Below, in pieces: positions 1,334 through 39,770 of a stretch of DNA of 45,122 nucleotides. The translations under genes and the position numbers were made by a program. The notes under the pieces were generated by a model. It saw only the letters and a program-made list of their open reading frames with translations, was not told the origin of the DNA and searched no databases. The stretch is from Acidobacteriota bacterium (lineage in GTDB: Bacteria; Acidobacteriota; JAAYUB01). The stretch's first letter is position 1; every line of letters starts with the position of its first letter. The DNA lies in the NCBI GenBank assembly GCA_012517875.1, contig JAAYUB010000062.1, forward strand, positions 1 through 45,122, given 5' to 3'.

Positions 1334-1444
1334 GGGAACGAGCCTAGAGTTTCGATCACGATTACCTTCACGATTACGATCACGATTACGAATTACGATT
1401 ACGAGTACGAGTACGAGTTCCCAACTCTTATCTCCTATCTCACC
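1334..1444 (-). repeat. Composite short-word array A (convergent gap)
   Basis: This array fills the gap between two convergent genes. Read on the minus strand it starts at the stop codon of the SMP-30-like gene (TGA inside GTGAGGTGAGATAGG). It continues with GAGATAGGAGATAAGAG, then iterates ACTCGT and CGTAAT/TCGTAAT/CGTGAT words, and ends in GGCTCGTTCCCGTA. The block order is the same as in the array at 9864. The step is 6-7 nt and degenerate, so it is neither a perfect microsatellite nor a CRISPR. No ORF or hairpin terminator is evident. Confidence 0.85.
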
Positions 1445-9863: not shown

Positions 9864-10088
9864 ATGAACAGTGAATGGAGATAGGAGCTAAGAGATAGGG
9901 GGCAGGCTGTGTCGTGATCGTGAGACGTACTCGTAATTCGTACTCGTGATCGAGGCTCGTTCCCGTATTGCGGACATCGGACTTCGGACATCGGATATCG
10001 GGCTTGGGACCTGGATCATAGAATTCAGATCGTTGTACCGATCCACCGATTCACCCATTCACCCATTCACCCATCCACCGATTTACCG
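9864..10088 (+). repeat. Composite short-word array B (convergent gap)
   Basis: This array fills the convergent gap between the SDR and MFS genes. Order from the SDR side: GTGAATGGAGATAGGAGCTA with AAGAGATAGG; CGTGATCGTGAGACG and TCGTAAT/TCGTACT words; ATCGAGGCTCGTTCCCGTA; TCGGACA/TCGGACT/TCGGATA heptamers ending TCGGGCTTGGGACCTGG; then ATTCACCC heptamers to the MFS stop. On the minus strand the last block starts exactly at the MFS stop codon (TAA) as GGTGGATGGGTGAATGGG. It is the most complete example of the block order shared with arrays A, C, E, F and H. Confidence 0.88.
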
Positions 10089-15642: not shown

Positions 15643-15680
15643 TTCAGGCGTCCCGCGTGGCTCAGGCGTCCCGCCTGAGC
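15643..15680. repeat. Dispersed palindromic repeat CAGGCGTCCCGCCTG
   Basis: Directly after the glycyl radical gene are two tandem copies of TCAGGCGTCCCGC. The second forms the perfect hairpin CTCAGGCG-TCC-CGCCTGAG (15661-15679); the first is imperfect. A degenerate third copy (TTCAGGCATCCCGCC) lies near 15832, beyond the terminator. The remaining 444-bp gap up to 16086 holds the terminator, a promoter candidate and no gene I can support. Confidence 0.6.
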
Positions 15681-15797
15681 GAAAACCGATCCGGCGAGCC
15701 AGCGAACCGGCGAGGGGAGTTGCCCGGATGCTTCACCGGTGACGGCCGGAGACCAAATCGACAACTCCGACGAGGATGGGAACGCCCTCGTCTCGTG

Positions 15798-15826
15798 GCT
15801 GCCGGCTCGCGCCGGCAGCTTTTTTT
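15798..15826 (+). terminator. Intrinsic terminator after glycyl radical operon
   Basis: A perfect 9-bp stem, GCTGCCGGC (15798-15806) with GCCGGCAGC (15811-15819), encloses the loop TCGC and is followed by seven T residues. It is 156 bp after the stop codon, with the palindromic repeat in between. Confidence 0.9.
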
Positions 15827-15976
15827 CAACGGTTCAGGCATCCCGCCCACGAAGACGCCGCTGGCGGTGGGCGTGAAGCGGTGAGGGAATCTTTGCGCTG
15901 CCTGGCGCGCCCTGACCCGGATGTCCGCACCCGCCTCCATACAAAACGGCCGGCGGCGTACTCTCTATCGGAGCGG

Positions 15977-16005
15977 TTGACGGCGGTCGCTGGATACCGT
16001 TTTAT
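15977..16005 (+). promoter_or_regulatory. Candidate sigma-70 promoter for the giant secreted protein
   Basis: TTGACG (15977-15982), a 17-bp spacer and TTTTAT (16000-16005) lie in a conspicuously A+T-rich stretch (about 16000-16075) of an otherwise G+C-rich window. The gene's AGGAGG is at 16077-16082. The boxes match 5/6 and 4/6 of consensus. The leader would be about 75 nt. Confidence 0.4.
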
Positions 16006-16086
16006 TTTATTCATGTATTCCTTAAGATTTAATGGTACGATACATCTTCATTAATGATCACAATTGGTTCTGATTCAGGAGGCATC

Positions 16087-19000
16087 ATGTCAGCGATCGC
16101 CCGTTCCACCCGGTTTTTTTGTGGGACTCATCCGTTTATGAGCAGCGCCACGCCGACGCATCTCGCGGCGCTGGCCGTCGCGCTGTGCGCGGCCGCGCTG
16201 CTGCTGACCACTCCGGCCAGCGCCCAGACCGCCGACCTGTTCTTCTCCGAGTATATCGAGGGGAGCAGCAACAACAAGGCGCTGGAGATCTACAACGGCA
16301 CCGGCGCCGCGGTGGACCTGGCGGCCGGCCAGTACGTCGTCCAGATGTACTTCAACGGGAGTGCCACCGCCGGCCTGACCATCACCCTGAGCGGCACCGT
16401 GGCCGCCGGCGACGTGTGGGTCGTGGCCCACTCTTCGGCCAATGCGACCATTTTGGCCCAAGCCGACCAGACGAACGGCTCCGGCTGGTACAACGGCGAC
16501 GACGCCGTGGTCCTGCGCAAAGGCGGCACCGGCGGCACCATCGTCGACGTGATCGGCCAGGTCGGATACGACCCGGGCTCCGAATGGGGTTCCGGACTCA
16601 CCTCCACCGCCGACAACACCTTGCGCCGCATGGCCTCGGTGTGCGCCGGCGACACGGACGGCTCCAACGCCTTCGACCCCGGTGCGGAGTGGGACGGCTA
16701 TGCCACCGACACTTTCGACGGCCTGGGCAGCCACACCGCCGACTGCCGCGCGCCGAAAATCAATGAGTTTTCAGCCAGCACTGCCGGCGTGGATGTGGAG
16801 TTCGTCGAGATCTTCGCCATCCCCAATACCGACTACTCAAACCTGACCATCCTCGAGATCGAAGGCGATTATTTCAGCACCGCAACCGGTATGGTGGACG
16901 AAGTGATTGCCGTGGGCACCACCGACGCCAACGGTTTCTATCTCGCCAACCTTATTGCCAATTCGCTGGAGAACGGCACGCTCACGCTGCTGCTGGTGGA
17001 AAATTTTACCGGCAGCGCCGGAAACGATCTGGACACGAACGACGACGGCGTATTCGACAGCACGCCCTGGACCCAGATCGTGGACGCGGTGGCCGTCCAT
17101 GACGGCGGCGCTTCGGACCTGATGTACGGCGCGCCGGTTCTGGGCGTGTCATATGACGGGCTGCCCTTCGCCCCGGGCGGCGCGTCGCGCATTCCCGACG
17201 GCGCCGACACCGACACCGCCGCCGACTGGGTGCGCAACGACTTCGACTTGGCCGGCATCTCCGGCTATACCGGCACGCCGGTGTTCGGCGAGGCGTTCAA
17301 CACGCCCGGCGCCGCCAACGCCGCCGTGCCGCGCCCCCCGGTGATCAACGAATTTTCGGCCAGCACTGTCGGCACGGATGTGGAGTTCGTCGAGATCTTC
17401 GGCGCACCCAACACCGACTACTCCGCGCTGACCGTCCTGGAGATCGAAGGTGACTCCGGAAACGTGGGCGTGGTGGACGAAGTGATCGCCGTGGGCATCA
17501 CCGACGCCAACGGCTTTTATCTCGCCAACCTTATTGCCAATTCGCTGGAGAACGGCACGCTCACGCTGCTGCTGGTGGAAAATTTCACCGGCAGCGCCGG
17601 AAACGACCTGGACACGAACGATGACGGTGCCTTCGACACCACGCCCTGGACTCAGGTCGTCGACGCAGTCGCCGTCCACGACGGCGGCGCCACGGACGTG
17701 ACCTACGGCGTGCCGGCTTTGGGTGTGTCGTATGATGGTCTGCCCTACGCCCCCGGCGGCGCCTCGCGCATTCCCGACGGCACTGACACGGATACCACCG
17801 CCGACTGGGTGCGCAATGACTTTGACCTGGCCGGCATCACCGGTTACACCGGCACGCCGGTCGAGGGCGAAGCCTACAACACCCCCGGCGCCACCAACCG
17901 TCGGGTGCAGTACATGGTGATCAACGAGATCCACGCCGACCCGGACGCCGCCGCCGGCGACGCCAACGGGGACGGTACGGTGAACACCACCCAGGACGAG
18001 TTCGTGGAGATCGTCAATACGTCCCTGTCCGACAAAGACCTCTCCGGCTGGACCCTCTCTGACGCCACCGGTGTCCGACACGTCTTCCCCGCCGGGACCA
18101 CCGTGGCGGCCGGCTGCGCCGTTGTGGTGTTTGGCGGGGGGACGCCCATGGGCCTGTTCGGCGGCGCCGAGGTGCAGATCGCGTCCACCGGCGCGCTCGG
18201 TTTGAACAACGACGGCGACACGGTCACCCTGACCGACACCACGGCGGTGGAACAGGCCGTCGCCACGTACGGCGCCGAAGGCGGCGACAACCAGAGCCTG
18301 ACCCGGGATCCCGACATCACGGGCACTACGTGGGTGAAGCACACCGTGGCCACCGGCTCCGGCGGGACCCGCTTCTCGCCCGGTACGCCCATCGCCGGCG
18401 GCACCTTCGCCGGCTGCGTGATTGTCATCCCCGAGTACACCATCGCCCAGATCCAGGGCAACGGATTGACGTCGCCGTATCTGTACGACCTGGTCATGAC
18501 CCGCGGCAACATCGTCACCGCGCTGGACAGCAACGGCTTCTTCATGCAAACGCCTGACGGCTCCGACGACGGCGACGCCGACACCTCCGAGGGCATCTTT
18601 GTCTTCACCCTCACGGCGCCGACGGGCGTGGCGGTGGGCGACAACGTCGACGTTCAGGGCGTCGTGACGGAATACTACGATTTCACCGAGATCGGCACTC
18701 CGTCGCTCGCCCCCCTGGTCACGGTCAATTCCAGCGGCAACAGCCTGCCGGCAACGGTGGTTCTGGACGGCGCCACCCCCGTGGGCACCCAGCCGTGGCC
18801 GGCCATCGAGCTGGAGCGCTACGAGAGCATGCTGGTCGAGGTGACCGGCGCCCGCGCCACCAGCCCGTCCGACCAATACGGCGACGTGACCATGACGTCC
18901 GGCCCGAACCTGAAGTTCCGGGAACCCGGCATCGAGTATCCCGGCCTCGTCGGGCTGCCGGTGTATGACGGCAATCCGGAAGTATTCGACCTGGATCCCA

Positions 19001-22000
19001 ACGGACTGCTCCTGCCCGAGCTGGAGGTCTTCGGCGGCGCCACCTTCGACGCCGTGGGACCGCTGGGCTACTCGTTCGGCGACTACCAGATCCTGCCCGT
19101 CACCCTCACCCTGATCAACCCGACGCTGCCCCGGGCGGTGCGGGATCGCAACCCGGGCGAGTTCACCGTCGCCACCCAGAACTTCTACCGGATCTATGAC
19201 CCGGTGGATGATCCGGATAAGGACGACGACGTGTTCACCGCGCAGGAATACGCCGACCGCCTGAACAAGGCGTCGCTCCAGGTGCGCACCGTGCTGGGCG
19301 CACCCGACATCCTGGGCGTCCAGGAGGTGGAGAACATCACCGTCCTCGAAGACCTGGCCGCCAAGATCGCCGCCGACGACCCGACCCTGAACTACACCGC
19401 CGTGCTGGAGGAGGGCTGGGACGTCGGCAGCATCGACGTGGGCTTCCTGGTGCGCGACACCATGACCATCGTCAACTGGTACCAGGTGCAGCCCGACGAC
19501 ACGTTCGATTACGGCGGCACGACCTACATCCTGCACGACCGGCCGCCGCTGCTGCTCGAGGCTTACTACTCGGCCGGCCTGATGGACATACCCGTGAGCG
19601 TGCTGGTGGTGCACAACCGGTCCATCGATGACGCCAGCGACCGCGTGCGCGTGAAGCGCTGGACCCAGGCGTACCGCATCTCCCTGTTCGTCCAGAGCTA
19701 CCAGGACACCTATCCCGACATCCCGCTGGTGGTGTTGGGCGATTTCAACGCCTTCGAGTTCACCAGCGGTTACGTGGATCCCCTGGGGCAGATCACCGGC
19801 AGCCCGGATCCGCTGGGCGCCATGTATCCGGCCACCGACGAGGTGGATCCCGACCTGACGAATCAGATCTTCAACCTGCCGGCGGAGGAGCGCTACACGT
19901 ACCACTTCGACGGCGACGCCCAGGCGCTGGACCACATTCTGACTTCCGCTGCGGCCGCCCCGCTCGTGGTGGAGATGCAGGCCGGCCGCGGCAACACGGA
20001 TGTCCCGCGGGATTACCTGAATGATCCCAACACGCCGCTGTTCTGCTCCGACCACGACGGCCTGGTGCTGTACCTGAGCGGCGCCTCCGTCAGCGACCTG
20101 GTCTGGGAAGACCTGGACCAGAACGGCCTGCAGGACGCCGGCGAGTGGGGCGTCGCGGGCGTCTGGGTCAGCCTCTACACTGCTGCCGATGATTATGTGG
20201 GCTCCGTCCAAACCGACGCCGGCGGCCTCTACCGCTTCGACGGCCTGCTCCCCGGCGACTACTACCTGATCTTCGACGCGCCGGACGGCTATGTGCTCAC
20301 CCTGGCCGACCAGGGCGCCGACGACACCGTTGACAGCGACGCCGACCCAACCACCGGTTCCACCGCCATCTTCACTCTGGCCGCCGGCGAGGAGAACAAG
20401 ACCCTTGACGCCGGCCTCATAGAGGTTTTCACCATCACCGCCACCGCCGGTCCCGGCGGCACCATCGACCCGATCGGCGACGTGGTCGTCTGGATCCACG
20501 CCGACCAGACCTTCACCGTCACCGCCGACGCCGGCAACACCATCCGGGATGTGCTGGTGGATGACGTCTCGCAAGGCTCCAGCGCCACCTACACCTTCTA
20601 CGACGTCACCGCCGACCACACCATCGAGGCCGTCTTCAACCGGCCGCCGGTGGCTGTGGACGACGGATACACCGCCTTCGAGGACAACCCGCTGAGCGTC
20701 TCCGCAGTCAGCGGCCTGCTGGCCAACGACAGCGACCCGGACGGCGATGCCCTGATCGCCGCGACGGTGACTCTGCCGGCCAACGGCACGCTGGCGCTCC
20801 AACCCGATGGCGCGTTCGTCTACACGCCCAATCCCGGCTACAACGGCACGGACAGCTTCACCTACCAGGCCTCCGACGGCGAACTCGTTTCGGCGCCGGC
20901 GACCGTGACCATCACTGTGAAGCCCGTGAACGACCCGCCCGTCGCCGCCAACCTCTCGCTGACCACCGTCGTGGACATGCCTGTGGGTGGCGTGCTGCCT
21001 GGCGCCGACCCGGACGGCGACGCCCTCGTCTATCACATCGTGTCCGAGCCTGGGCTGGGCGTGCTCAGCGGCTTCGATCCCAACACCGGCGCGTTCACGT
21101 ACGTGCCCAATCCGTTCGTCACCGGTGTGGATACCTTCACCTTCACCGTCTCGGACGGCGAGTTCACGTCCGCGCCGGCCACGGTGACGGTCACGATCCT
21201 TCCGCTGCTCTTCCAGACCTTCGCCGCCCATGTGGTGGCCAACGACGAGTGGTTCACCACCCTGTGGGTCACCAATGCCGGCGACACGCCGACGCCCGTC
21301 TTCGCGCACGCGTTCGGCGCCGACGGCCATCTGCTGGAAGCGGTGGCTCTGGGCGACCTGTCGCCGCAGGCGACCCTCACCGTGAATGCCGGCGACATCT
21401 TCGGCGAAGCGGCCATGGCCGGCGACGCCTGGGTCCGGATCGGGACCCAGGCCCCGGCGCTGGGCATGCTGGCCTTCGGCACCGCCGACTTCCAGACGTA
21501 CTCCGCCATGCCCATGTTCGACTGGGCCGCGTACGAGCTGGTGTTCCCGTACGTGTACATCTCCGACATCTGGTTTACCGGCGTCACATTGATCAACGTG
21601 GGCCCGGCCGGCGCGGATGTCGTCCTCGAGGCCGTGTCCGAGAGCGGCGAGATCCTCGACCAGGCCGACGTCGCCATTCCGTCCCGCGGCAAGTACGTCC
21701 GGATGGTGGACCAGATTTTCACCGTCGACGATCCGAACGCGATCCGGTTCATCCGGGTGACCGCCACGTCGCCGCTGATCGGCTTCGAGCTGTTCGGCAC
21801 CTCGCTGGGTCAGGGTGTCGCCGGGCTGCCGGCGTTTGCCGAGGAGGCTGTCGATGTGTCCGGCAAGGTCAGACCGGCCGCCGCTGACGGTCCGGCCGAG
21901 GGGCTCGGCGCGATGTCCGTCCCGCCGGGATTCTGGGGCTGGGGCCTGTCCGGCGACTCCATCCAGCTGGATTGGGACCCGAATCCCCCCGGCGAAGGCG

Positions 22001-22851
22001 TGCTGTATTACAACGTTTACGACAAGAACGACATCTACACCACCCTGCTCGGCAGCACCGAGGAGACCCGCTTCACCGTCACCGGCCTGCAGCCCGAAAC
22101 ATGCTACCTCTACCAGGTACGGGCGGTGAACGCCGAGGGCGTGGAGTCGCTTGACACCAAGTGGCTCGTCGTCTGCACGCTGGCCGAGGGCCAGACCGAT
22201 TACGCCTACCGCATCTTCTACAACGAAGTGCCCGACCCTGCCGCCTACATGACCGGCATGACTGTCTCCAACCTCGGCGACGCTCCGGCGACGGTGCAGA
22301 TCACCCTCCACGACGCCGCCGGCGCGGCGCTGTGGCAGGAGGCGTGGGACGTGCAGAGCCTCGAGCAGATCACCCGGGAGCTGCCGGCCATGGTGGGCGG
22401 CGGCGTGCCCCCGGGCACCGCGTACCTGAAGGCGGGCGCCGACTCGCCCATCCTCGGCTTCGAGCTGTTCCACAATCTGCTGGACAAGGCCGACACCTTC
22501 CGCGTGGACTGCGTCGCGGGCACCGACCGCGGCAGCCTGCAGGCGGCCTTCCCCATGGTGCGTGGCGGCGCGGATTGGACCACGTCGCTGCGGATCACCG
22601 ATCTGGCCGGTACGGACCAGGAGCTCACCGTCGAGGCCTTCGCCGCCAGCGGCGCCCTGGTGGGGTACTGGACCACACCGCTGGCCGCGCACGGTCAGCT
22701 CGAGACGACGCTCGAAACCATGTTCCCCGGCCACGGCGCGGCGGTGGTTTCGCTCAGAATGACGGCCACCGGCCGGATCAACGCCACGCTGGTCACCGTC
22801 TCGTCCGACCTGACCCGCATGGCCGCCATGTCCGGCCTGCCGGTGAATTGA
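16087..22851 (+). CDS. Giant secreted multidomain protein with ExeM/NucH-like nuclease domain
   Basis: The 2254-residue exported protein has a signal peptide ending near 46 (extended N-region; core starts at Met18), then a lamin-tail-like domain (48-215), two near-identical modules (about 225-419 and 420-611) and a third lamin-tail domain (612-780). An OB-like segment leads to an endonuclease/exonuclease/phosphatase domain (about 1025-1335) with ATQNFYRIYD, GVQEVEN, VVLGDFNAFEF, LDHIL and SDHDGLVLY, the catalytic pattern of ExeM/NucH extracellular nucleases. It continues with an SdrD-B-like domain (QNGLQDAGEWGVAGVWVSLY), a Listeria-type B-repeat-like segment, two cadherin-like/Big_9 modules (VNDPP, SDPDGDAL), a beta module, a fibronectin III domain (about 1944-2031) and a related final beta module. 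It may degrade extracellular DNA at the cell surface. The ATG at 16087 has AGGAGG upstream; 16054 is less likely. Confidence 0.85.
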   Translation: MSAIARSTRFFCGTHPFMSSATPTHLAALAVALCAAALLLTTPASAQTADLFFSEYIEGSSNNKALEIYNGTGAAVDLAAGQYVVQMYFNGSATAGLTITLSGTVAAGDVWVVAHSSANATILAQADQTNGSGWYNGDDAVVLRKGGTGGTIVDVIGQVGYDPGSEWGSGLTSTADNTLRRMASVCAGDTDGSNAFDPGAEWDGYATDTFDGLGSHTADCRAPKINEFSASTAGVDVEFVEIFAIPNTDYSNLTILEIEGDYFSTATGMVDEVIAVGTTDANGFYLANLIANSLENGTLTLLLVENFTGSAGNDLDTNDDGVFDSTPWTQIVDAVAVHDGGASDLMYGAPVLGVSYDGLPFAPGGASRIPDGADTDTAADWVRNDFDLAGISGYTGTPVFGEAFNTPGAANAAVPRPPVINEFSASTVGTDVEFVEIFGAPNTDYSALTVLEIEGDSGNVGVVDEVIAVGITDANGFYLANLIANSLENGTLTLLLVENFTGSAGNDLDTNDDGAFDTTPWTQVVDAVAVHDGGATDVTYGVPALGVSYDGLPYAPGGASRIPDGTDTDTTADWVRNDFDLAGITGYTGTPVEGEAYNTPGATNRRVQYMVINEIHADPDAAAGDANGDGTVNTTQDEFVEIVNTSLSDKDLSGWTLSDATGVRHVFPAGTTVAAGCAVVVFGGGTPMGLFGGAEVQIASTGALGLNNDGDTVTLTDTTAVEQAVATYGAEGGDNQSLTRDPDITGTTWVKHTVATGSGGTRFSPGTPIAGGTFAGCVIVIPEYTIAQIQGNGLTSPYLYDLVMTRGNIVTALDSNGFFMQTPDGSDDGDADTSEGIFVFTLTAPTGVAVGDNVDVQGVVTEYYDFTEIGTPSLAPLVTVNSSGNSLPATVVLDGATPVGTQPWPAIELERYESMLVEVTGARATSPSDQYGDVTMTSGPNLKFREPGIEYPGLVGLPVYDGNPEVFDLDPNGLLLPELEVFGGATFDAVGPLGYSFGDYQILPVTLTLINPTLPRAVRDRNPGEFTVATQNFYRIYDPVDDPDKDDDVFTAQEYADRLNKASLQVRTVLGAPDILGVQEVENITVLEDLAAKIAADDPTLNYTAVLEEGWDVGSIDVGFLVRDTMTIVNWYQVQPDDTFDYGGTTYILHDRPPLLLEAYYSAGLMDIPVSVLVVHNRSIDDASDRVRVKRWTQAYRISLFVQSYQDTYPDIPLVVLGDFNAFEFTSGYVDPLGQITGSPDPLGAMYPATDEVDPDLTNQIFNLPAEERYTYHFDGDAQALDHILTSAAAAPLVVEMQAGRGNTDVPRDYLNDPNTPLFCSDHDGLVLYLSGASVSDLVWEDLDQNGLQDAGEWGVAGVWVSLYTAADDYVGSVQTDAGGLYRFDGLLPGDYYLIFDAPDGYVLTLADQGADDTVDSDADPTTGSTAIFTLAAGEENKTLDAGLIEVFTITATAGPGGTIDPIGDVVVWIHADQTFTVTADAGNTIRDVLVDDVSQGSSATYTFYDVTADHTIEAVFNRPPVAVDDGYTAFEDNPLSVSAVSGLLANDSDPDGDALIAATVTLPANGTLALQPDGAFVYTPNPGYNGTDSFTYQASDGELVSAPATVTITVKPVNDPPVAANLSLTTVVDMPVGGVLPGADPDGDALVYHIVSEPGLGVLSGFDPNTGAFTYVPNPFVTGVDTFTFTVSDGEFTSAPATVTVTILPLLFQTFAAHVVANDEWFTTLWVTNAGDTPTPVFAHAFGADGHLLEAVALGDLSPQATLTVNAGDIFGEAAMAGDAWVRIGTQAPALGMLAFGTADFQTYSAMPMFDWAAYELVFPYVYISDIWFTGVTLINVGPAGADVVLEAVSESGEILDQADVAIPSRGKYVRMVDQIFTVDDPNAIRFIRVTATSPLIGFELFGTSLGQGVAGLPAFAEEAVDVSGKVRPAAADGPAEGLGAMSVPPGFWGWGLSGDSIQLDWDPNPPGEGVLYYNVYDKNDIYTTLLGSTEETRFTVTGLQPETCYLYQVRAVNAEGVESLDTKWLVVCTLAEGQTDYAYRIFYNEVPDPAAYMTGMTVSNLGDAPATVQITLHDAAGAALWQEAWDVQSLEQITRELPAMVGGGVPPGTAYLKAGADSPILGFELFHNLLDKADTFRVDCVAGTDRGSLQAAFPMVRGGADWTTSLRITDLAGTDQELTVEAFAASGALVGYWTTPLAAHGQLETTLETMFPGHGAAVVSLRMTATGRINATLVTVSSDLTRMAAMSGLPVN
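16759..17919 (+). repeat. Tandem intragenic duplication of lamin-tail-like modules
   Basis: Two consecutive units of 585 bp (16759-17343) and 576 bp (17344-17919) are nearly identical at the DNA level for long runs, notably around 16920-17050 and 17505-17635 (both encode ANLIANSLENGTLTLLLVEN). Unit 2 has a short deletion in the GDYFSTATGMVDE region. A more diverged lamin-tail unit follows from 17920. The high DNA identity points to recent duplication or ongoing gene conversion. Confidence 0.85.
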
Positions 22852-22921: not shown

Positions 22922-23216
22922 CCGGTGAATGGGTAAATGGGTGAAAAAGTGAATGGACCGGATTCGTACCTGTCACGGTGTTCGTGCTCGTAATCGTAAT
23001 TCGTAATCGTCATCGTGCTCGTAATCGAGGCTCGAGACTCGAGACTCGAGGCTGGAGGCTCGTTCCCAGCCACCGGGTTTCGCGGTTCGGGGTCCGGGGC
23101 TCGGCACTTGCCACCAAGGATCAACCATCAACTATCAACTATCAACTATCAACAATAGTCGGACCTGGGTTCTGGGCCCAGGATCACAGAATCCGATACT
23201 CATACCCATTCACCTG
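22922..23216 (+). repeat. Composite short-word array C
   Basis: Blocks in order: GGTGAATGGGTAAATGGGTG (heptamer GTGAATGG type); GTTCGTGCTCGTAATCG followed by TCGTAAT/CGTCAT words; six heptamers of TCGAGGC/TCGAGAC type ending GGCTCGTTCCC; a GGTTCGGGGTCCGGGGCTCGG-like block; five ATCAACT/ATCAACC heptamers (about 23123-23156); a GGACCTGGGTTCTGG block; and a final CCCATTCACC. The gap 22852-23357 holds no other gene I can support. This is the clearest example of strict 7-nt periodicity. Confidence 0.88.
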
Positions 23217-23357
23217 TTTGGGAAATTGTCCGGGCTGTTCAGTTCTCTCCTAGATCAAACACCGATGGTGTACAATCCCGACGATCCGCTTGCGCTTGTC
23301 CCGACTTTTTTCTACAGTATGGTCATCCAGCCGGAAATATCAGAGGAGGCTGTGACC

Positions 23358-30320: not shown

Positions 30321-30420
30321 GGTTGATTGTTGATCGTGGATCGTGGATCATGGATCATGGATCATGGAAGATCACCCTTCTTCCAACAATCAACTATCAA
30401 CCATCAACTATCAACAGATT
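30321..30420. repeat. Composite short-word array D, with inverted ends, in the yfiT leader
   Basis: GTTGATTGTTG (30322-30332) and its exact reverse complement CAACAATCAAC (30384-30394) flank GATCGTG/GATCATG heptamers. The right arm continues as ATCAACT/ATCAACC heptamers that end five bases before the Shine-Dalgarno CGGAGGT of the next gene. The whole can fold as a long imperfect hairpin in the mRNA leader. Confidence 0.8.
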
Positions 30421-30432
30421 CTCGGAGGTGTT

Positions 30433-31009: not shown

Positions 31010-31139
31010 GTTGAGGTTTGATGGTTGATCATTGATGGTTCGTGCTAGTAATTCGTAATCGTAATTCGTAATCGTAATCGTAATCGTGCTCGCGGCTCGA
31101 TGTCCGAAGTCCGATTTCCGATATCCGATGCCCGACGCC
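31010..31139 (+). repeat. Composite short-word array E
   Basis: Blocks in order: GTTGAGGTTTGATGGTTGAT (about 31010-31036), GGTTCGTGCTAGTAATTCG, five or more TCGTAAT/CGTAAT words, GTGCTCGCGGCTCG, then TCCGAAG/TCCGATT/TCCGATA/TCCGATG heptamers. The order of the TCGTAAT block, a GCTCG-rich block and a CCGA-rich block is that of arrays B and H. The 784-bp gap 30967-31750 contains this array, a palindromic repeat at 31293, array F and no gene I can support. Confidence 0.85.
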
Positions 31140-31292
31140 TGAGATGCCGGCACATCGACTGCATCCGGTTACGCGCCCGGGCCCGTCAGGGACGGAATTC
31201 ATTGTGCCCACCCGGTCGGTTTCCGGGATGCCCGATGTCGCCCCGGCGGGGCTCTGGTGATTCGTTCAACCAACGTGCGCATCACCACTGGA

Positions 31293-31490: not shown

Positions 31491-31697
31491 CAGGGCCCGG
31501 AACCCAGGTTCCAGGTCCGAAATCCGATGTCCGAATTCCCATGTCCGATGTCCGCGTTTCGGGAACGAGCCTTGAGTCTCGATTACGATTGCGATCACGA
31601 TTACGAGTTCCGATCACGAATCACGAGCACGAACTCATAATTCGCAACCCTCAACTCTCACCGAATGAGAACGAGCCCCGAGCCTCGAACCTTGCTT
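31491..31697 (-). repeat. Composite short-word array F (inverted polarity)
   Basis: Read on the minus strand: GGTTCGAGGCTCGGGGCTCG with TTCTC; GTGAGAGTTGAGGGTTG; GAGTTCGTGCTCGTGATTCG and further CGTGAT/CGTAAT words; ATCGAGACTCAAGGCTCG with TTCCC; TCGGACA/TCGGATT heptamers; then GGACCTGGAACCTGGGTTCC. The block order matches B and H, but no minus-strand gene lies to its right, so its polarity relative to genes is the exception. It ends about 50 bp before valS. Confidence 0.85.
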
Positions 31698-35888: not shown

Positions 35889-36140
35889 AATCGAGGCTCG
35901 TTCCGATTTGTTGAGAGTTGAACGTTGAGGGTTCGTGCTCGTGATTGTGATTGAATCGTTTGAAGGTTTGCAGGTTCTCCAGTTCGCAAGTTCCAGGTTC
36001 GCGGGTTGTGGGTCAGTTGATAGTTGATGGTTGGTAGATTGATGGCTGATGGTTGATCCGTCTCTCGCTTCATCGACTCGCCGCTTCACCGATTCACCGC
36101 TTCAGCGACTCACTCAGCCCGGGCTTCGAGTTTCGGCCTC
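35889..36140 (+). repeat. Composite short-word array G
   Basis: It starts one base after the radical SAM stop with ATCGAGGCTCGTTCC. Then come GTTGAGAGTTGAACGTTGAG with GGTTCGTGCTCGTGATTG; GTTTGAAGGTTTGCAGG and TTCGCAAGTTCCAGGTTCG; TTGATAGTTGATGG and related GGTTGAT/GGCTGAT heptamers; and TTCACCGATTCACCGCTTC. The 300-bp gap to the next gene holds nothing else I can identify. Confidence 0.85.
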
Positions 36141-39444: not shown

Positions 39445-39770
39445 GGAGACAGGAGTTAACAGCTTCTGTTCATGCTCGTAATTCGTCGTCGTAATTCGTC
39501 GTCGTAATCGTTGTAATCGTGCTCGTCATCGAGGCTCGAGGCTTGAGACTCGTTCCCACGCGACGGACATCGGATGTCGGGTCTTGGGTCTCGGGCCTTG
39601 GTCGTGTCTCCCGTCTCCCGATTCACCCGCTCACCGATTCACCGTCCAAGCTGACCAAGAAAGAAAACAGGGAGCCGGGACCGCATCCCGCCTCCCTGAA
39701 CCTTCTGCAAACCTGCGAACCTGTGAACTTGCAAACCTTAAAACTTTCGAACCTGTGAACCAGAGATCCG
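39424..39770 (+). repeat. Composite short-word array H (convergent gap)
   Basis: Blocks from the S9 side: GTGAACAGTGACCAGTGAGG with AGACAGGAGTTAACAG, overlapping the S9 stop; TTCATGCTCGTAATTCGTCG and further TCGTAAT/TCGTCG words; ATCGAGGCTCGAGGC with TTGAGACTCGTTCCC; GACGGACATCGGATGTCGGG with TCTTGGGTCTCGGG; GATTCACCCGCTCACCG; and, after a plainer stretch, GCAAACCTGCGAACCTGTG with further 7-8-nt variants (about 39707-39760). The order matches array B. No terminator or gene is evident in 39445-39806. Confidence 0.88.

Follow-up and report, generated by a model that had tools for sequence, protein, structure and literature searches.

Tandem heptamers in bacterial intergenic regions are usually viewed as independent slippage products. 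Described examples are the heptameric intergenic repeats of Xanthomonas and Nostoc (GGGAATC / GGGGAYT; PMC4692102), the TAACTGA direct repeats of marine Beggiatoaceae (PMC4679880) and a 49-copy element of Geobacter metallireducens, which carries four GGACCGG heptamers (PMC2700814). The sequence analysed here (the window, 45,122 nucleotides) is contig C62 of a draft Acidobacteriota genome (G000; 4.02 Mb, 182 contigs) and contains eight intergenic arrays (A–H), each built of short tandems of 6–8-nt words. As in Xanthomonas and Nostoc (PMC4692102), intergenic heptamer tandems are numerous, few lie between divergent genes, unit number is variable, sites are mostly shared by related species and inverted pairs occur sometimes. 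However, those genomes use one word family each, and neither an ordered series of word families nor shared single-copy linkers were reported for them. The Geobacter element (PMC2700814) is likewise dispersed, alignable and equipped with tandem heptamers, but has one word, always in four units, and is also found within genes. The Beggiatoaceae repeats (PMC4679880) share the abundance of intergenic heptamer tandems and a patchy phylogenetic distribution, but consist of one word mostly just upstream of start codons, whereas the arrays described here favour gene 3′ ends.

A second point of comparison is BIME / REP-RAYT (PMC2817692), with which the arrays have in common that they are extragenic, dispersed module mosaics in high copy number, follow orientation rules, are polymorphic between relatives and occur in genomes with Y1 transposases. 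Unlike BIME, their modules are 6–8-nt word tandems without a palindromic REP base, an imperfect palindrome being absent as basic unit from most arrays of the window, and inverted copies do not frame the transposase genes. The open-access papers searched do not describe a repeat family with several words in a set order, and the family appears to be undescribed. In contrast to the usual view, the order of many word families is inherited here from one copied ancestor, so that slippage operates on DNA that is also a dispersed repeat.

Word families and block order

Intergenic 7-mers with the largest excess group into recurring word families, and the block families were hand-curated from the list of these enriched words:

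Family D: GTGAACA
Family K: AGATAGGAG
Family T: TCGTAAT, TCGTGCT
Family A: TCGAGGC, TCGAGAC
Family M: GCTAGAGG
Family F: CTCGTTCCC
Family G: TCGGACA
Family P: GGGACCT
Family Q: GGGTTCT
Family S: ATTCACC
Family V: GTTGATG
Family R: GGTTCGCA

Read in these blocks, the window contains the following features:

1334..1441, minus strand: array A, K-T-F, between convergent genes; G001 has array A too
9867..10088, plus strand: array B, a complete composite copy (D-K-T-A-F-G-P-S) flanked by convergent SDR oxidoreductase / MFS genes
9879..9901, plus strand: K block of array B (GAGATAGGAGCTAAGAGATAGGG)
9912..9952, plus strand: T block of array B (TCGTGATCGTGAGACGTACTCGTAATTCGTACTCGTGA)
9954..9980, plus strand: single-copy 27-nt core of array B (A/F/G junction), differing from the family core at 1 position
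9971..10005, plus strand: G block of array B (CGGACATCGGACTTCGGACATCGGATATCGGGCT)
10037..10088, plus strand: S block of array B (ACCCATTC / ACCGATTC octamers)
22923..23220, plus strand: array C, S'-T-A-F-V'-P-Q-S
30325..30425, strand not assigned: array D, V/W..V' inverted repeat with no T, A or G block
31018..31140, plus strand: array E, V-T and then a G block in inverse orientation; kept in G002, absent from G001
31501..31628, minus strand: array F, T-A-F-G-P-Q, core at 31545-31571 with 1 mismatch
35889..36113 (or to 36130), plus strand: array G, A/F-T-R-V-S, departing from the main order
39445..39650, plus strand: array H, (K-like)-T-A-F-G-P-like-S
39705..39761, minus strand: R-block tail after array H (GCGAACCT octamers)

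Array B runs from D (GTGAACAGTGAA) and K (GAGATAGGAGCTAAGAG) through T (TCGTAAT..TCGTGA), A-F (TCGAGGCTCGTTCCCGTATTGC), G (CGGACATCGGACTTCGGACATCGGATA) and P (CTTGGGACCTGG) to the ATTCACC words of S. An earlier note on this DNA had claimed one block order for arrays B and H, which the block reading confirms, although the start of H is degenerate and only K-like (GAGGAGACAGGAG). Its statement that array A, on the minus strand, has the first three blocks in the same order also holds (K-T-F, with the quoted GAGATAGGAGATAAGAG and GGCTCGTTCCCGTA present). The claim that T precedes a GCTCG-rich block stands for array C (T-A-F) and for array F (minus strand, T-A-F-G-P-Q). For array E, the claimed TCGGAC/TCCGAT block had merged a block with its inverse, as the TCCGAT run sits on the strand opposite to E's T block. 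Three arrays of the window thus depart from the order: E with its inverted G block, G with A/F before T, and D, which consists of the V..V' hairpin only.

The window genome was compared with two congeners, G001 and G002, all three being Acidobacteriota MAGs of one genus. Window-genome statistics span 0.64 Mb of the 4.02 Mb in sampled stretches, some of which were picked for containing T words. Array-bearing gaps in the sampled sequence number 64, 85 and 48 in the three species, and array-blind stretches, with 7 such gaps in 249 kb, give a rough genome estimate of ~110. All genomes are draft MAGs, in which contigs tend to end at repeats. At window-genome contig ends, long perfect heptamer runs (CTCCAAT ~x17-34, GGTTGGA) were seen where the assembly breaks (C2 26908-27042, L043 13337-13467, L060 16273-16360 and L067 1-94).

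The arrays share the order D-K-T-A-(M)-F-G-P-Q-S, and this sharing is real and far above chance. Downstream of 77 T anchors in the window genome, 188 block pairs were concordant with the chain A-M-F-G-P-Q-S and 8 discordant, compared with a mean of 97.7 and a maximum of 124 concordant pairs in 2000 shuffles; upstream of T, K and D were found in 12 of 12 cases. When only non-overlapping seeds and families and one array per gap were admitted, concordant to discordant pairs amounted to 165:31, 239:26 and 228:16 in the three species (shuffle maxima 123, 165 and 153, respectively), the discordant pairs being mostly G or A ahead of T, i.e., re-entry into the chain or an alternative G-T junction. Block-to-block transitions in 202 arrays pooled from the three species carried 2.39 bits, against 0.953 ± 0.030 in a shuffled model. 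These pooled arrays are partly non-independent because orthologs are included, and therefore the single-genome tests carry the weight. Departures from the order mainly re-enter the chain, by G to T or F to T, or enter it by another route, through V to T or R to V. Before T, V, R or G can stand in for K, and R or P can directly succeed T. Strand is bound as well, agreeing with the nearest T in 35:0 cases for K, 164:6 for A and 109:6 for G; the S block has no such binding (17:21).

Single-copy core and dispersal of the repeat

The A-F-G junction is non-repetitive and forms a 27-nt core (GGCTCGTTCCCGTAAYGCGGACATCGG). At up to 2 mismatches, this core was counted 31, 53 and 48 times in the respective species of the genus, and it is missing from all of 294 further Acidobacteriota genomes, the sister genus included. 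Further junction 12-mers recur across 5–13 gaps, and fixed junctions between blocks are common to dozens of loci. In BLAST searches, arrays B and F aligned with dozens of other places over ~80–190 bp, and within-genome paralogs gave gapped alignments of 200–350 bp at 73–91% identity. A core present once per array cannot arise by slippage, and the arrays are therefore copied from one composite repeat. Word number does vary in 6–8-nt steps, as independent slippage at each locus, combined with chance or convergent word choice, would have it; as a source of the order, however, this explanation is refuted by the shared order, strand and core, and its probability is next to nil. In long simple sequence repeats each locus arises alone, with no homology outside the unit, whereas order and core are shared here. 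The earlier note's argument that independent slippage would not yield a shared order is therefore borne out. Of the two origins it offered, a composite unit that is copied agrees with the core, fixed junctions, paralog alignments and orthologous order, while assembly by a rule is unnecessary given the core.

Copies are dispersed and lie in both orientations, as might be the case for a REPIN- or MITE-like non-autonomous transposable element on which a Y1 (RAYT-type) transposase acts in trans and whose copies are then reshaped by slippage. Y1_Tnp genes are present in all three species (5, 7 and 5 matches), several of them within ~1 kb of arrays, and T blocks within one gap face each other in 19 cases and point apart in 3. 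On the other hand, transposase proximity is weak evidence because arrays are so common; the block maps show no framing pair of inverted copies of one block around the RAYT (Y1_Tnp) genes, and G003 has Y1_Tnp genes but no arrays. The arrays end in D/K at one side and S at the other, but neither target duplications nor constant ends were found, and most arrays of the window are non-palindromic. Overall, we regard such an element as an unlikely explanation. Nevertheless, a transposase may have been required for one ancestor to give rise to about a hundred sites. A clean empty site with defined ends was not present in 91 orthologous pairs; the copying step itself is unobserved.

Unit length, gene context and folding

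Unit length is sharply limited. In 250 kb of gaps, 139, 371 and 115 perfect tandem runs were counted at periods 6, 7 and 8, while periods 5 and 9 gave only 10 and 11, and 1.27 Mb of coding DNA contained only 31 and 30 runs at periods 7 and 8. In the sister genus, tandem repeats are near background. As in long simple sequence repeats, with their tandem 5–11-nt units of variable number, orthologs differ in word number; here periods 6–8 dominate. The narrow unit length (6–8 nt) and limited vocabulary would also suit a reverse transcriptase or similar polymerase that adds words from a short template by a rule. However, the fixed linkers are better explained by copying and no RVT_1 domain was detected in G000–G003, which also dismisses a retron, DGR or group II intron; we hold this possibility to be highly improbable. 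Loss of mismatch repair as a cause of slippage was rejected, as genes of the MutS family were detected, in G000 and G001 with an open frame of 843 aa. Intact MutS would fit 6–8-nt loops escaping repair.

Array copies are intergenic and biased to gene 3′ ends: among gaps of at least 150 bp, arrays occur in 73, 68 and 82% of the convergent, 31, 38 and 48% of the tandem and 13, 20 and 35% of the divergent ones (three species). The preference for convergent gaps could point to a selected functional element (3′-end, terminator, insulator or RNA regulator) whose presence and order are kept by selection. In its favour, sites persist while their content turns over, P..P' hairpins have low folding energies (mean z −4.6, n=4) and the hairpin of locus D has been retained though both arms changed words. 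However, hairpins are restricted to arrays with P..P' or V..V' and most arrays fold no more than shuffles; in the window, shuffled sequences fold at least as well as A, B, E and G, and z is even positive for A, B and G. Array polarity relative to the genes is not significant, the sister genus lacks the repeat, and promoter avoidance together with arm-to-arm template switching accounts for the facts cited for a function. Accordingly, we consider a selected function very unlikely as the explanation. Known RNA families and tRNAs were not found in the window, for which an Rfam search at gathering thresholds gave no match.

Turnover at orthologous sites and proposed origin

At the B locus, the order D-K-T-A-..-G-P-S is kept in all three species, whereas K seed hits number 4, 33 and 5; because these vary, slippage sets the word number per block, not the order. 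The array C ortholog in G001 has an internal T-A-M-F duplication, and the array H ortholog in G002 reads D-K-T-A-M-F-G-Q-P-Q'-S. Among 91 orthologous gap pairs, both members carry arrays in 27, a single member in 5 and neither in 59. Sites therefore persist, yet contents often differ or are inverted: median mutual coverage is 0.79 for orthologous arrays vs. 1.00 for other gaps, and falls below half in 23% of the former vs. 3% of the latter. Modules are swapped, duplicated or inverted, and word number varies freely. Array D, located in the window upstream of a DinB-like gene, folds into a long hairpin in each of the three species; its G002 arms use altered words (GTTGAGT/ACTCAAC) with pairing kept, which is what arm-to-arm template switching or hairpin selection would do. 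In the gap 15643-16137, which is array-free in the window, G001 and G002 have 4.5–4.8 kb with arrays, i.e., an indel of several kb. The gap precedes a gene (16054-22851) for a 2265-aa protein with lamin-tail, SdrD B-like, Ig/cadherin-like and endonuclease/exonuclease/phosphatase domains.

The best paralog of an array lies on the same contig in 12 cases in G000 (2.4 expected, P = 0.0002) and 17 in G001 (7.9 expected, P = 0.005); G002, with 3 cases vs. 2.7 expected, has no neighbour effect. In G000 and G001, an array thus tends to have its most similar copy nearby on the chromosome, which suggests recombination over short distances or template switching.

Based on these results, the copies have a common ancestry, order and strand, and persist at their sites while their content turns over. 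We think it probable that the arrays are a dispersed, non-coding composite repeat restricted to the genus, which was copied, reshaped by slippage and had its modules swapped by short-range recombination, conversion or template switching. The ancestral unit would have been ~200–350 bp long (D-K-T-A-F-G-P-Q-S), each block a short tandem of one 6–8-nt word and the blocks linked by fixed non-repeated linkers. Replication slippage with a 6–8-nt step would grow and shrink each block. Modules may spread and be reshuffled when neighbouring arrays undergo ectopic recombination over short distances, gene conversion or template switching, for which the TCG-starting words found in several blocks would be the microhomology. 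Copies would persist where promoters are not broken, and roles in the cell, such as terminator-like hairpins at 3′ ends or chromosome organisation, would be hypothetical. A bolder reading takes the arrays as dedicated sites whose content is actively rewritten, ordered modules being exchanged mainly with chromosomal neighbours while site and syntax are kept. If true, the arrays would represent a new type of modular, recombining element between genes rather than decaying microsatellites, but we judge this quite unlikely. The sharp 6–8-nt window, site persistence with content turnover and neighbour similarity make both the origin and the spread of long simple repeats in bacteria testable by strain comparison.

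Outside the genus, the composite repeat was present in contigs labelled 'Planctomycetota' (JAKQDH; L099, L122) and 'Lentisphaerae' (CALMZY; L102), which are probably misbinned. Misbinning is likelier than spread to other phyla by transfer because the JAKQDH array nearly matches contig C2 of the window genome. A distant Acidobacteriota genome (G030, GC ~47%) and a PVC contig were rejected as carriers, as only TCGTAAT-like words are in common and the architecture is different. A genome of another Acidobacteriota family (G012; L275, L276) has a mild intergenic period-7 excess (5.06 per 1000) without these words. In G030, intergenic elements beginning with AATAATCGTGGATCGTAATCG occur with inverted copies (L071, L074, L080, L083, L086, L092), and possibly constitute a separate palindromic repeat family.
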